Shown in pieces: positions 9,462 to 15,824 of a DNA stretch of 45,572 nucleotides. How positions within the stretch are numbered: position 1 is the stretch's first letter; each line of letters begins with the position of its first letter. The notes under the pieces were generated by a model. It saw only the letters and a program-made list of their open reading frames with translations, had not been told where the DNA came from and made no database searches. This stretch comes from a bacterium GBS-1. Lineage in GTDB: Bacteria; Synergistota; GBS-1. The position numbers were made by a program, and so were the translations under genes. Location: NCBI GenBank assembly GCA_001443005.1, contig LEKQ01000010.1, positions 1 through 45,572 of the forward strand, written 5' to 3'.

Positions 9462-11213
9462 TCACCCGGAAGTAGGAAATATGGGAAACTCCACACTTAA
9501 AACTACCTCTTCATCGGAGCTCTCCCTAAAACTAAAGCCTCCACCGCATCTTTTAACTATATCCTCAATCATAGTTAAAGCTACGCTATCTTCTTTAAGC
9601 TTTCCCTTCATGCAGAGCTCCATCGAGACAACTGCCTTATCCCTCACATAGGATGTCCTAATCCTTAACGCTCTTCCATCATAGGCCATCAAGATAAGGG
9701 TTAAAAGGAGCTCCTTAAGGTCAGAAGGTTTAACATAAGGCAAGGGAAGTCTTTCATCGAGATCAAGCTCAAGTCTATCAAGACCCAAAAGATCCTTGAT
9801 CTCCAAGATGAGCCCATTCAGGTCAGCTCTCCTTTTCTCCTCACGAGCTTCATCGAAGTCAAAAAGAAACTCCCTAAAGCGATTAAAATCCTTAGCTTTA
9901 AAGAGAAGCTTTCCTACAATAAAGTTTCTCCAGCTTTCGCGAAGCATCCTCTCAATGGTGCTCTTCTCGGTAAAATCACAACCTAAAAGTAGATGTCTAC
10001 CCTCGCCCAACGAGGTCATCAAAAAGAAATAAACGCGGTCACCAAGCCTGATTTCCCCCTTGCGTTGGTTAATCAAGTTTCCAAGTTCGTCCTCTGGTAA
10101 AAGCTCCTTCAAGCTTTTACCGACCATCTCTTCCGCCGTTAAGGGTAGCTTGTCCGTCTTACCACTGAATCTCAAGACCTCAAAGGCATCGTTAAGCTCT
10201 ATTAAAATGCCAGGGTAGCTCTTCCTAAACTCCTCAAAGGAATCCTTAACCGAGGACCCGCTCTCACCATGCTCTTTAGGCTCCTCAAGCTCCTCCACAA
10301 CTTCCTTTAAAGCCCGATCACGAGCCTCATCTTTCCTTCTCCCCCAGGGAAGAGGGACCACAAATGAGAATAAGCCTGCAAGCGAGATCACCAGAAACTT
10401 AACCATAGCCAAAGGGTATTTCACCTTCCCTAAGAGAAAGTCCTGAGCCGCGTATAGCAGTATATACCAGGGCTCATCCCTCTCAACAGATATCATCCTA
10501 TAAAGAACCAGGGTCTTCACCCCTCCGAGGTCGATAACTTTCTTCCCCTCCTTGCCTAAGTCACTTAAAAGGTGAGCCGTGATCCTATCTCCCCAGACAA
10601 CGCCATCTTTACCCCTCAAGACCGACATATTCCAGAGAGAACCAAAAGGCTCATGCATCCTTTTAAAATTATCAACCATCATACCGGGATCAAGGAGATA
10701 AAACAGAACCCCTCTGAAGCTTCTACCTCTATCGAAAAGCGGAGCATATAGACCTATAAAACTCCTCTCCCCAAGGCGTAAGGGAAAGTCCATAACCAAG
10801 CCTATGGGCCCAGCTTTAATGAGCTTGAAGAAGGGCGCTTCAGCCACCGATTTCCCCTTTAAGGTAGGCTCATCAGGATAGATCTCAAGGATTGTGCCAT
10901 CCCTTCCGATAAGGCCACTCATAGAAACGAAAGTCCCCCGAGTCTCATGAAGACCACGTAAGCTATCGCTTAACTCCTCATCGCCAAGGTCACCTAGCAA
11001 GGAGAGCTTGCTTAGAGCGTAAAGCGTGGATTTAAGGCTAAAGACCTCTTCCTCAAGATACCTACACAGCGCGTTTCTTAGGGCCAATCCCTTTTTAACT
11101 TCATCGTCTATAAGGCTATCCTCAAGCCTCTCAATCAAGTAAAGAGCCAGTGATCCTAAAAGGATCACAACCCCTAAAATTAACACCTTCAACTTAAGGC
11201 TCCTAACTATCAT
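9462..11213 (-). CDS. Membrane sensor resembling a histidine kinase without catalytic residues
   Basis: A 583-residue two-helix membrane protein. After a first membrane helix (about residues 8-26) comes an extracytoplasmic double-Cache-like domain (IGRDGTILEIYPDEPTLKGK, GVLFYLLDPGMM), a second helix near 270-290, a charged linker and a PAS-like segment with MVGKSLKELLP. The C-terminal region has the shape of a kinase ATPase domain (ALTMIEDIVKRCGGGFSFRE, then VVLSVEFP), but the phospho-accepting His is not visible, the N-box Asn is replaced in LLLTLILMAYDG, and no DxGxG or GxGL motif is present. It overlaps the sigma factor gene by 11 bases, so it may control that sigma factor. The function is inferred, not established. 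Confidence 0.75.
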   Translation of the reverse strand: MIVRSLKLKVLILGVVILLGSLALYLIERLEDSLIDDEVKKGLALRNALCRYLEEEVFSLKSTLYALSKLSLLGDLGDEELSDSLRGLHETRGTFVSMSGLIGRDGTILEIYPDEPTLKGKSVAEAPFFKLIKAGPIGLVMDFPLRLGERSFIGLYAPLFDRGRSFRGVLFYLLDPGMMVDNFKRMHEPFGSLWNMSVLRGKDGVVWGDRITAHLLSDLGKEGKKVIDLGGVKTLVLYRMISVERDEPWYILLYAAQDFLLGKVKYPLAMVKFLVISLAGLFSFVVPLPWGRRKDEARDRALKEVVEELEEPKEHGESGSSVKDSFEEFRKSYPGILIELNDAFEVLRFSGKTDKLPLTAEEMVGKSLKELLPEDELGNLINQRKGEIRLGDRVYFFLMTSLGEGRHLLLGCDFTEKSTIERMLRESWRNFIVGKLLFKAKDFNRFREFLFDFDEAREEKRRADLNGLILEIKDLLGLDRLELDLDERLPLPYVKPSDLKELLLTLILMAYDGRALRIRTSYVRDKAVVSMELCMKGKLKEDSVALTMIEDIVKRCGGGFSFRESSDEEVVLSVEFPIFPTSG

Positions 11214-11700
11214 GGGCGCTCCTGAGCTTTTCCACCAACCTCCTTCGCCTTAGATTTACCCAGCTTCTGGATTTTCCCATTATCCTCGATATATTTTCGT
11301 CATTATACCCCCAAAGGTAATAAAGCTCAAGTAGACGTCTGTCCTCATCAGACAAGGGTATATCAACGAGGTCGTTCGCTAAAGGGGGCTCAGAGGGCAG
11401 TTCATCGCTTAAGATAACCCCTTTCTTCCAGTTAAGCTCCTTGAGCCAATAGCTTCTGATGTGCGCTTCCAAGCTTCCTTTGATATACCCTTCAAGGCGG
11501 ACCTTCCCTGCCCTATATCTGCGTATAAGCTTTATAAGCGTGAGATATCCTTCCTGCCTCAAATCCTCATAGGAGCCACCTTTAAGGGAATATCTACGCG
11601 CAATAGATTCAACCAAGGGACGAAAACTAAAAACCAGATCCTTTAAGATCTCCTCACCTATACTCTCCCCTGAGAGCAGAGACTCAAAGGGCAACCCCAT
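11203..11700 (-). CDS. Small sigma-70 family factor
   Basis: A two-domain alternative sigma factor of about 165 residues. Region 2 is visible as LVESIARRYSLKGG followed by EDLRQEGYLTLIKLIRRYRA, and region 4 as LSDEDRRLLELYYLWGYND followed by ISRIMGKSRSWVNLRRRRL, a helix-turn-helix for the -35 element. Region 3 is missing. The sequence is not a typical ECF factor; region 2 looks closer to small SigF- or BotR-like forms. The start is uncertain: ATG 11700 follows GAGAGGTG too closely, and TTG 11694 has better spacing; GTG 11703 is a third option. All candidate starts lie within or next to an inverted repeat arm. The 3' end overlaps the pseudokinase gene, its probable partner. Confidence 0.82.
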   Translation of the reverse strand: MGLPFESLLSGESIGEEILKDLVFSFRPLVESIARRYSLKGGSYEDLRQEGYLTLIKLIRRYRAGKVRLEGYIKGSLEAHIRSYWLKELNWKKGVILSDELPSEPPLANDLVDIPLSDEDRRLLELYYLWGYNDENISRIMGKSRSWVNLRRRRLVEKLRSAHDS

Positions 11701-11758
11701 CACCTCTCTATAGTAAAAATTTTTACTATAGAATAATAAATAGGGTTGCCCTTTTCAA
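11686..11758 (-). promoter_or_regulatory. Promoter with nested palindromes before the sigma factor gene
   Basis: On the minus strand TTGAAA (11758-11753), 17 bases and TATTCT (11735-11730) form a plausible promoter. A perfect 24-base palindrome (11708-11731; half-site CTATAGTAAAAA) overlaps the end of the -10 box and the expected start point near 11723. Around it lies a second inverted repeat with 15-base arms, 11740-11754 and 11686-11700, differing at one position. The inner arm of the first lies between -35 and -10; the other covers the first five codons of the sigma gene. The layout fits a repressor operator, an RNA hairpin hiding the start codon, or a terminator of the upstream DUF3084 gene. 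Confidence 0.65.
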
Positions 11759-13372: not shown

Positions 13373-14197
13373 TTATCTTGAGGAGAAAATCTCCTCAAGA
13401 GATCGAAGAAAGCTTTCCATCTCGTCTTCATCGTCAAATAGCACCTCTACGCTATTAACAGCCCCTCTTTTTACTCTAACCCTAACGTGGTAGAGTTCCG
13501 CAAATCTCTTTTCCGCTTCTTTGTCTCTTTCAACTGCTCTTCCCCTCTTAGAGACCTCCCTCTCAACATCTCTAACTGAAAGGGAATGCTCCAAGATTTC
13601 CTTTGCTACCCTTCTTTGTTCCTCAGGATCATCAAGAGAAAGTAAAGCCCTTGCATGTCCCATCGTTAAGCGCCCATCCGAAACCATCTCCTGGATATCT
13701 TCTGGAAGTTTCAAGAGCCTGAGAAGATTTGCAACGGTTGATCTCTTCTTACCTATCTTATCAGCAACCTCTTCCTGCGTTAAGCCAAAGCTTTCCATAA
13801 GCTTCCTTATAGCATAAGCAGCCTCTATTGGGTTCAAATCCTCCCTCTGCAGATTCTCTATTAGGGCATACTCCAGTAGCTCCTCATCCGATACCTCCTT
13901 GACCAGAGCAGGGATCTTCTGTAGGCCCGCTTTCTTCGCTGCACGATATCTCCTTTCTCCTGCTATTATCTCATACCCCTTTTCCACTTTACGAACCACA
14001 ATGGGCTGAAGGAGCCCATGTTGCTTTATCGAAAGAGCAAGCTCCTCCAAGGAGTCTTCATTCATAGTCTGGCGAGGTTGATAAGGGTTAGGAGCCACCT
14101 CGTCTAAGGATATTTCCATAAGCTTTTCCTTTCCAGGAACCGAGGGGATAAGGGCTTCTAACCCCCTACCCAACCCCCCTTTAGACTTAGGGGGCAT
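13373..14197 (-). CDS. parB: Chromosome partitioning protein ParB (Spo0J)
   Basis: The CTP-dependent DNA clamp that binds parS, spreads on DNA and works with ParA and SMC in origin segregation. The N terminus GGLGRGLEALIPS is typical of chromosomal ParB and carries the segment that stimulates ParA. CTP-binding motifs GYEIIAGERRYRAAKKAGL and ALIENLQREDLNPIEAA are intact. The parS-reading helix-turn-helix is EEVADKIGKKRSTVANLLRL. Key specificity positions (Arg in KKRST, Gly in TMGHARA) fit parS rather than Noc sites. Length 274 is usual. It lies three bases after parA and is followed by bactofilin. Two parS sites are in the window. Confidence 0.96.
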   Translation of the reverse strand: MPPKSKGGLGRGLEALIPSVPGKEKLMEISLDEVAPNPYQPRQTMNEDSLEELALSIKQHGLLQPIVVRKVEKGYEIIAGERRYRAAKKAGLQKIPALVKEVSDEELLEYALIENLQREDLNPIEAAYAIRKLMESFGLTQEEVADKIGKKRSTVANLLRLLKLPEDIQEMVSDGRLTMGHARALLSLDDPEEQRRVAKEILEHSLSVRDVEREVSKRGRAVERDKEAEKRFAELYHVRVRVKRGAVNSVEVLFDDEDEMESFLRSLEEIFSSR

Positions 14198-14200
14198 TAT

Positions 14201-14974
14201 CTATCCTCTCCTTCCCTTAACAAACTCACGTGCCAAGGAGATGTAAGCCTGAGCTCCGTTTGATTGTGGGGCATAGTATATGACCGGCTTCCCATAGCTT
14301 GGTGCCTCGCTTACCCTAACGCTCCTCGGTATTATCGCTTTAAAAACTTTTTCCTTAAAGTAATTCCTAACCTCAGCTGTAACCTGTTGCGCAAGCTTCG
14401 TCCTTGAATCATACATAGTCAATAAAACGCCAAAGATCTCAAGACCAGGATTCAGATATTCCCTTACCAGATCTATGGTTTTTAGGAGCTGTCCCAACCC
14501 CTCAAGGGCGTAATATTCACACTGGATAGGGATTATAACCCCATGAGCCGCGGTTAAAGCGTTTATAGTCAACAATCCCAAAGATGGAGGACAATCCATG
14601 AATATGTAATCATAATTGGAAATTAGGCTTTCCAAAGCCCTCTTAAGGCGTGTTTCACGTGAAACAGTATTAACCAGCTCTATCTCAGCCCCAGCCAGAT
14701 CTATATTTGAAGGCATAACATCCAGATTTTTATATACATTCTTTATTATAGCATCCTCGGCTTTAACTCTCCCAGAGATGACATCGTACAAACTATACTT
14801 CACATCCTCCTTCTCAATCCCTAATCCACTTGTAGCATTCCCCTGAGGATCGACATCAATGAGCAAAACCTTCTTGCCAAAGGAAGCAACTGCAGAAGAG
14901 AGATTAACAGCTGTAGTGCTTTTACCAACGCCACCCTTTTGATTAGCGAGAGCTACCGCCTTGCCAACCTTCAT
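14201..14974 (-). CDS. parA: Chromosome partitioning ATPase ParA (Soj)
   Basis: A deviant Walker-type ATPase that binds DNA non-specifically as an ATP dimer; ParB-parS complexes move along its gradient. In Bacillus the homologue Soj also regulates DnaA. The deviant P-loop is ANQKGGVGKSTTAVNLSS, the Walker A' is LLIDVDPQGNATSGLG, and DYIFMDCPPSLGLLT is the Walker B region. I chose ATG 14974, with AAGAGGTG six bases upstream, over the in-frame GTG at 14983, which overlaps that site. The start overlaps the end of noc, so noc, parA and parB form one operon. A parS site lies inside the coding sequence. Confidence 0.96.
   Translation of the reverse strand: MKVGKAVALANQKGGVGKSTTAVNLSSAVASFGKKVLLIDVDPQGNATSGLGIEKEDVKYSLYDVISGRVKAEDAIIKNVYKNLDVMPSNIDLAGAEIELVNTVSRETRLKRALESLISNYDYIFMDCPPSLGLLTINALTAAHGVIIPIQCEYYALEGLGQLLKTIDLVREYLNPGLEIFGVLLTMYDSRTKLAQQVTAEVRNYFKEKVFKAIIPRSVRVSEAPSYGKPVIYYAPQSNGAQAYISLAREFVKGRRG
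14651..14666. promoter_or_regulatory. parS: parS centromere site inside parA
   Basis: TGTTTCACGTGAAACA, a perfect 16-base palindrome and an exact parS consensus. It encodes the VSRET segment of ParA, a position where parS is also found in other bacteria. Confidence 0.96.
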
Positions 14975-15824
14975 AACCTTCACCTCTTAAGAAAGATATC
15001 CTCAACTCCCCGCGCTCTTCATCCAAAACCACGTTGAAGCTTACACCCTGTTTTTCAAACTTAGAGAGCGTTTTACATATAAAACCATACAAATCTTTCA
15101 GATTTTGGGGTGGCCTGTTGCCCTTATTCTTCATTTCCTGGGAAATTAGACCGAGCATTTTATCGACGAGCTCTTCGGTCTGGCTAACATTAAGCTTCCT
15201 CTGCTCTATCTGCTTTAAAGCCTTCATTATTTCTGTTTCTGAGGGAAGCTTGAGTAAGGCTCGGGCATGCCTCTCTGTTATTGTGCCATTCATTAGTTTC
15301 TCCTGAACTATGACAGGAAGCTTAAGAAGTCTAAGCTTATTTGCTATTGTAGACTGTTTCTTTCCCACCATCTGAGCGATTTCCTCTTGAGTTAAGTCAA
15401 ACTCTTGCATCAGCCTCTTATACCCATAAGCCTCCTCTAGGGGGTTAAGATCGCTTCTTTGTAGGTTCTCTATGAGGGCAAAGGAAAGAGCTTCTTTCTC
15501 CGTGGCCTCTATGACCATAGCAGGAATGAGACTTAATCCCGCGAGTCGAGCAGCTCTCCACCGCCTCTCTCCCGCTATTAGTTCATAGCGTTCCTCGCCA
15601 ATCTCTCTAACTATTATAGGTTGAAGGACTCCTACCTCCTTGATGGAAGAAGCTAACTCCTCCAAAGACTCGGGATCCATATTTTTCCTGGGTTGATAAG
15701 GGTTTAACACAACAGAGTCAATGGGGATCTCTCTAACCTCCTTCTTTTCCTTAGTCTCAGGGGGGTGCGGCAACTGTTCTAAAACTTCCCTCTTCTCCTG
15801 CTCCTTAGATTTTCCAAACCACAA
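14943..15824 (-). CDS. noc: ParB paralogue of the Noc (nucleoid occlusion) type
   Basis: Noc binds its own DNA sites, spreads with CTP and attaches to the membrane, keeping the division ring away from the chromosome. The protein has the ParB core (NPYQPRKNMDPESLEELASS, ERYELIAGERRWRAARLAGL, ALIENLQRSDLNPLEEAYG) and a helix-turn-helix GKKQSTIANKLRLLKLP that matches Bacillus Noc. Gln and Lys in that helix and Arg in ITERHARALLKLP occupy positions reported to switch specificity from parS to Noc sites. The short N terminus MWFGKSKEQ could be a membrane-binding segment. The order rsmG-noc-parA-parB is the Bacillus order. TTG 15824 follows AAGGAGGTGA. A near-consensus Noc site lies within the gene. 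Confidence 0.88.
   Translation of the reverse strand: MWFGKSKEQEKREVLEQLPHPPETKEKKEVREIPIDSVVLNPYQPRKNMDPESLEELASSIKEVGVLQPIIVREIGEERYELIAGERRWRAARLAGLSLIPAMVIEATEKEALSFALIENLQRSDLNPLEEAYGYKRLMQEFDLTQEEIAQMVGKKQSTIANKLRLLKLPVIVQEKLMNGTITERHARALLKLPSETEIMKALKQIEQRKLNVSQTEELVDKMLGLISQEMKNKGNRPPQNLKDLYGFICKTLSKFEKQGVSFNVVLDEERGELRISFLRGEGYEGWQGGSSR
15133..15146. promoter_or_regulatory. Candidate Noc-binding site inside noc
   Basis: ATTTCCTGGGAAAT matches 13 of 14 positions of the Bacillus Noc-binding consensus ATTTCCCGGGAAAT and lies within the noc coding sequence itself. Confidence 0.6.

Follow-up and report, generated by a model that had tools for sequence, protein, structure and literature searches.

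What does a sensor shaped like a histidine kinase do when the residues for phosphotransfer are missing and its gene overlaps that of a sigma factor? The question is raised by a locus in the stretch of DNA analysed here (hereafter the window), the 45,572 nucleotides of contig LEKQ01000010.1 from the Synergistota bacterium GBS-1 (assembly GCA_001443005.1). The first-pass annotation had described the locus as a possible new signalling pair. We compared the window genome (G000) with a genome of a sister genus (G001) and with two other members of the family (G002 and G003); the comparison rests on these four family genomes.

The sigma factor and the sensor are encoded by linked genes

Both genes lie on one strand:

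11203..11703, minus strand: two-domain sigma-70 family factor of 166 aa (Pfam/NCBIfam matches)
9462..11213, minus strand: membrane sensor of 583 aa, very probably a dismantled histidine kinase (alignment, profiles, predicted fold)

The reading frames share 11 bp (ATGATAGTTAG), as the first-pass annotation had read them, and the Shine-Dalgarno sequence of the sensor gene, AGGAG, is located within the sigma gene. A DUF3084 gene lies upstream of the sigma gene, and a Na/phosphate transporter gene lies downstream of the sensor gene. Whether the pair co-occurs in other genomes was also looked at: sigma and sensor are linked in 4/4 family genomes, the G001 version being an intact kinase, and unlinking was not seen. 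In G000 and G003 the transporter gene comes after the sensor gene, in G001 after the regulator gene; it is absent from G002 (L002:1437-1471). Elsewhere in the window, ParB-like genes (13373-14197 and 14943-15824) stand on either side of a ParA-like gene, a Spo0J/Noc-like duplication with an adjoining rsmG-like gene. PADLOC gave no relevant defence-system match.

The designation as a small sigma factor was confirmed by matches to Sigma70_r2 (E 6e-10), Sigma70_r4 (E 6e-5) and TIGR02937 (above its cut-off) in Pfam and NCBIfam. According to these profile matches, regions 2 and 4 follow each other in order without region 3. Judged by homology, translation likely starts at the TTG at 11694 rather than at the GTG at 11703. 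Sigma identity across genera is 58–66%, versus 28–30% for the sensor, and an approximate dN/dS for sigma between G002 and G003 is ~0.17, with dS near saturation.

The sensor lacks the parts of a kinase that carry phosphotransfer

Four parts of the sensor can be placed on the window:

10419..11126, minus strand: extracytoplasmic Cache-type domain between two membrane helices, residues ~30-265 (dCache_1 matches of orthologues)
9975..10232, minus strand: short PAS-like segment, residues ~328-413 (sub-threshold PAS match)
9891..9914, minus strand: site of the missing DHp/H-box helix, residues 434-441 (alignment with G001)
9465..9851, minus strand: pseudo-CA (ATPase-like) domain without N box, G1, lid or G2, residues 455-583 (alignment, predicted fold)

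The window sensor itself has no dCache_1 match in Pfam. The outer Cache-like domain that had been proposed is recognised through its orthologues, with dCache_1 at E 1.1e-10 in G002 (slightly below the curated cut-off) and at E 9e-8 in G003. The proposed PAS-like segment is likewise upheld, by a sub-threshold PAS match here and by PAS_4/PAS_9 matches at the aligned place in the intact G001 orthologue. A GGDEF-type protein of G003 (G003:C181:11309; L072) has a Cache-type sensor domain in common with the pseudo-kinase (E 4e-7).

About 54 codons, which form the H-box helix in G001, are absent from G000, G002 and G003 at the same boundary. In the alignment with the G001 kinase, both N-box Asn residues are replaced (T/M in G000, A/K and F/K in the orthologues), and in all three genomes the G1 Asp is replaced and the ATP lid/G2 segment deleted. 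Neither HisKA nor HATPase was matched by the sensor in Pfam and NCBIfam, and searching the C terminus against the HATPase and DHp profiles of these collections revealed no overlooked intact motifs. The alignment and these searches agree with the earlier reading that the phospho-His, the N-box Asn and the glycine motifs are gone. A search of the sensor profile against PDB sequences returned nothing relevant.

AlphaFold2, run on two sequences, predicted the C terminus (residues 455-583, pLDDT mostly 73–89) as a kinase CA fold that superimposes on ThkA with Z 13.6 and an rmsd of 2.3 Å over 123 residues, in keeping with the kinase-type ATPase fold first proposed. RetS and DivL were also among the structural matches of this model. 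Residues 1-424 had pLDDT <50, so the model was not used for the Cache or PAS parts. Of the features of a histidine kinase, then, the CA fold and common ancestry are present, and the DHp phospho-acceptor His and the N box, G1, lid and G2 are absent.

The sister genus keeps an intact kinase at the same place

Among 185 phylum genomes searched, whole-length relatives of the sensor occur in four genomes of three genera, all in the window's family, and none was found outside it. Three of them (G000, G002, G003) have the degenerate form and G001 has the intact kinase; G001 is also the most distant by its DUF3084 gene (69% identity versus 77–79%). At the G001 locus the sigma gene, of which the end is present, overlaps the intact kinase gene by 4 bp, and an RR-HD-GYP regulator gene and then the same Na/phosphate transporter gene follow. 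Its kinase matches HATPase_c at E 2.8e-27 and also HisKA. A profile of the degenerate sensors finds this kinase with E 1e-66 over the sensor part and E 1.7e-7 over the CA part, and the DHp helix falls into the gap between them. The G001 regulator has no full-length orthologue in G000, G002 or G003, where only separate HD-GYP and receiver matches of ≤49% identity were found, and the family contains no close paralogue of the sensor.

Judged from these alignments, the sensor is very probably a two-component histidine kinase of the Cache-PAS type that has been dismantled. The simplest history has the kinase dismantled once, before G000, G002 and G003 diverged.

A shared promoter-like element points to a separate cassette as the probable sigma target

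No sensor gene neighboured the sigma relative at the first four loci read in the phylum's other families; those loci pointed to a DUF2922 cassette instead. Of the 20 best-scoring sigma relatives that the phylum holds beyond this family, 17 have a DUF2922 gene ≤3 kb away. The cassette elsewhere in the phylum comprises DUF1659, DUF2922, YvrJ, an M15 peptidase and a sigma gene (e.g. L039). The window's family also has it, away from the sigma locus (G000:C5, G002:C6, G003:C26, G001:C28), and the genes read there include no sigma gene in G000, G002 or G003. In the window genome it is found on another contig:

G000:C5:64468 (L106:2469-3700): cassette DUF1659-DUF2922-M15 peptidase-YvrJ

Cassette proteins match YvrJ (E 4e-14), DUF2922 (E 6e-20) and Peptidase_M15_3 (E 2e-20); the M15 protein further matches a phage endolysin (E 3e-28), and YvrJ weakly matches a holin (E 1e-4). 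DUF2922 is present in 93 of 120 phylum genomes and also in Thermotoga maritima. No functional paper on the cassette was found in the literature searched.

The sigma gene and the cassette have a leader sequence in common, which at the sigma gene is part of a palindrome:

11708..11731, no strand assigned: perfect 24-bp palindrome CTATAGTAAAAATTTTTACTATAG, with AAATTTTTACTATAG as its half

The one further copy of AAATTTTTACTATAG in the window genome stands before the DUF1659-DUF2922 cassette, and in G000, G002 and G003 this exact 15-mer occurs only at the sigma-gene palindrome and in the cassette leader. The G001 cassette leader has a diverged version of the element. Across the phylum, a pattern chosen after inspecting the leaders, TACTAT followed after 28–29 bases by TATR, occurs in 8/14 cassette leaders (shuffles: mean 0.01, largest 1), including those of families whose cassette carries its own sigma gene. 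Given the shared 15-mer and the recurrent TACTAT pattern, we read TACTATAG as part of a putative sigma-dependent promoter, leaving the identity of the box aside. Position, shared element and gene neighbourhoods together make a strong case that sigma drives its own gene and the cassette, and the cassette can be called its probable target with good confidence.

In Bacillus subtilis the split sigma factor SigO-RsoA transcribes yvrJ (PMC8103513), and in clostridia, bacteriocins and toxins have known sets of sigma, holin and endolysin genes (PMC9527704). Together with the endolysin and holin matches, these cases suggest release or lysis as a reasonable guess at the function of the cassette.

A hairpin covers the start of the sigma gene

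The palindrome lies within a larger predicted RNA structure:

11686..11754, minus strand: RNA hairpin over the ribosome-binding site and start of the sigma gene (folding, pairing in four genomes)

The hairpin follows immediately on the DUF3084 stop codon. Its z-scores are ~-9 in G000, -8.4 in G002, -7.1 in G003 (joined from two contig ends) and -2.2 in G001. We compared the pairing by a pair table from individual folds. Outside the near-identical palindrome, positions 1-11 are almost all paired in 4/4 genomes despite changes on both sides; one position, for example, is A-U, U-A or C-G across the genomes. The centre of the G001 hairpin is held by a G-U pair, which RNA tolerates and a DNA dyad does not, and thus fits RNA pairing.

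Such a hairpin would block translation of sigma from transcripts that read through from the upstream operon, whereas transcripts starting at the element in its 3' half would be translatable. From this arrangement we infer a guard against read-through translation of sigma, a role that resembles the read-through protection of transposase genes. An RNA thermometer found no support as a common mechanism: on heating to 80 °C the ribosome-binding site is predicted to open to a large extent in G000 only (from 0.25 to 0.69 unpaired) and by at most ~0.1 in the others. An intrinsic terminator was rejected, the stem having no following U tract. Rfam returned only chance matches to miRNA-type hairpins for the leader. 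A hairpin likewise covers the ribosome-binding site of the cassette's first gene in G000, G002 and G001. In the assemblies of G003 (L051, L075) and G001 (L036, L076), contigs end at the hairpin of the sigma leader or shortly beyond it. Genomes of this group may therefore often have their sigma gene split or overlooked.

The palindrome might instead be the operator of a repressor, the cassette being merely co-regulated with the sigma gene. A perfect 24-bp dyad would suit an operator, and no conserved -35 box can be assigned. However, the cassette retains just one of the two halves, the G001 dyad holds only through the G-U pair expected of RNA pairing, and TACTAT with fixed spacing recurs ahead of cassettes that have a sigma gene of their own. 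We therefore consider an operator rather unlikely and keep to the sigma-dependent promoter.

The sensor may control sigma without phosphorylation

Lacking an acceptor His and an ATP site, and with the regulator gone, the sensor has no means of ordinary phosphotransfer; together with the gene overlap, this makes sigma the obvious target. Our main reading, to which we assign a probability of about 0.5, is a locus of three parts: a dismantled kinase, a sigma factor with the cassette as its regulon, and stoichiometric control of sigma by the sensor. As the comparison with G001 shows, the ancestral Cache-PAS kinase has shed its phospho-acceptor helix, ATP lid and response regulator and has retained the sensor and the ATPase-like scaffold. 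Sigma would activate its own gene and the separate cassette of endolysin-like, holin-like and small DUF proteins. The sensor would control sigma by direct contact, an outside ligand on the Cache domain altering the grip of the pseudo-CA domain on sigma, and without a signal sigma would most likely be held inactive.

We infer direct binding from gene arrangement and lost catalysis, and by analogy the sensor is most likely a NifL-like, phosphorylation-free sigma regulator, probably of the anti-sigma sign. More specifically, and more tentatively than the main reading, it may be a dedicated transmembrane anti-sigma factor derived from a sensor kinase, whose ATPase scaffold sequesters sigma under ligand control while the sister genus keeps the kinase state. 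No anti-sigma domain model in Pfam or NCBIfam reached E 1 for the sensor, which is compatible with a new anti-sigma type. The fast divergence of the sensor relative to sigma means that an interface between them is not visibly conserved. The G001 sigma gene, moreover, adjoins the genes of an intact kinase and its regulator; lying side by side is therefore no proof of contact.

Other accounts of the sensor were weighed against control of sigma by binding. The loss of its catalytic parts and its fast divergence would suit a decaying relic without function, but its reading frame is open in all three degenerate-form genomes, linkage and the ATPase-like fold are kept, and dN/dS between G002 and G003 is 0.23 for the pseudo-CA domain and 0.26 for the Cache domain (rough figures, with dS near saturation). 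The remnant appears to be under purifying selection, and we regard a relic as highly improbable. It is also unlikely, though clearly less so, that the sensor is an activator or scaffold that binds sigma when the signal is on. The sequence does not fix the sign, and the gene overlap suggests coupled amounts; against this, the characterised precedents with a histidine-kinase-like ATPase fold inhibit their transcription factor, as NifL does and as SpoIIAB and RsbW do with their sigma factors. To a similar low degree, the pseudo-kinase could act on some other partner; it might serve as a decoy of the RetS/ChrS kind, heterodimerising with an intact kinase, and its operon with sigma would then only coordinate expression. 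The structural matches to RetS and DivL and the working-looking kinase at the same place in G001 agree with this, and ChrS is a documented case of a histidine-kinase pseudokinase that works by heterodimerising with a paralogous kinase (PMC9491836). Yet a decoy of the RetS/ChrS type is expected to need the dimerising DHp helix, which is deleted in all three genomes, and the family offers no close sensor paralogue as partner.

Comparison with known systems

Histidine-kinase-like proteins that hold a transcription factor are already known from NifL, and anti-sigma factors of the GHKL type from SpoIIAB and RsbW; a sigma factor paired with a dead kinase is apparently new to the literature. The open-licence literature searched contained no case of a sigma-70-type factor coupled to a transmembrane pseudo-histidine kinase whose kinase ancestor persists in a sister genus.

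NifL also combines sensor domains with a histidine-kinase-type C terminus and holds a transcription factor without phosphotransfer. The C-terminal domain of Klebsiella pneumoniae NifL has no ATP-binding features, yet it forms a complex with NifA (PMC9866876). NifL differs in its target, a sigma-54 activator, and in not being a transmembrane sensor of the Cache type; the sensor described here is of that type, has its DHp helix deleted and is encoded beside a sigma-70-type factor. Since the sensor's adjoining genes encode sigma and a transporter and not NifA, the likeness is one of working only. SpoIIAB and RsbW share the ATPase-fold superfamily and genetic linkage to their own sigma factor. Both are soluble serine kinases of small size whose ATP site is intact, whereas the protein described here is membrane-bound, descends from a sensor kinase and has no GHKL ATP site. 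RetS, DivL and the ChrS variant have the histidine-kinase fold without ordinary kinase output, but they reach their targets, other kinases or regulators, by way of DHp contacts, and the present sensor has no DHp.

On the side of the sigma factor, SigO-RsoA is similar in its small two-domain sigma function and transcribes yvrJ in B. subtilis (PMC8103513), as is predicted for the sigma factor of this locus, with the difference that it consists of two chains there, as opposed to one chain with another genomic partner here. UviA-UviB and TcdR-TcdE likewise join a small sigma factor to holin-like and endolysin genes (PMC9527704), but here no toxin or bacteriocin gene is seen, two 65-aa DUF proteins are present and sigma is paired with a sensor. 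For the widespread, uncharacterised DUF1659-DUF2922-YvrJ-M15 cassette, which is similar to holin-dependent release systems, the locus supplies a probable sigma factor together with a probable promoter element. Set beside these known systems, it would also provide a before-and-after pair at one locus in one family, from a phosphorelay sensor to a phosphorylation-free regulator.
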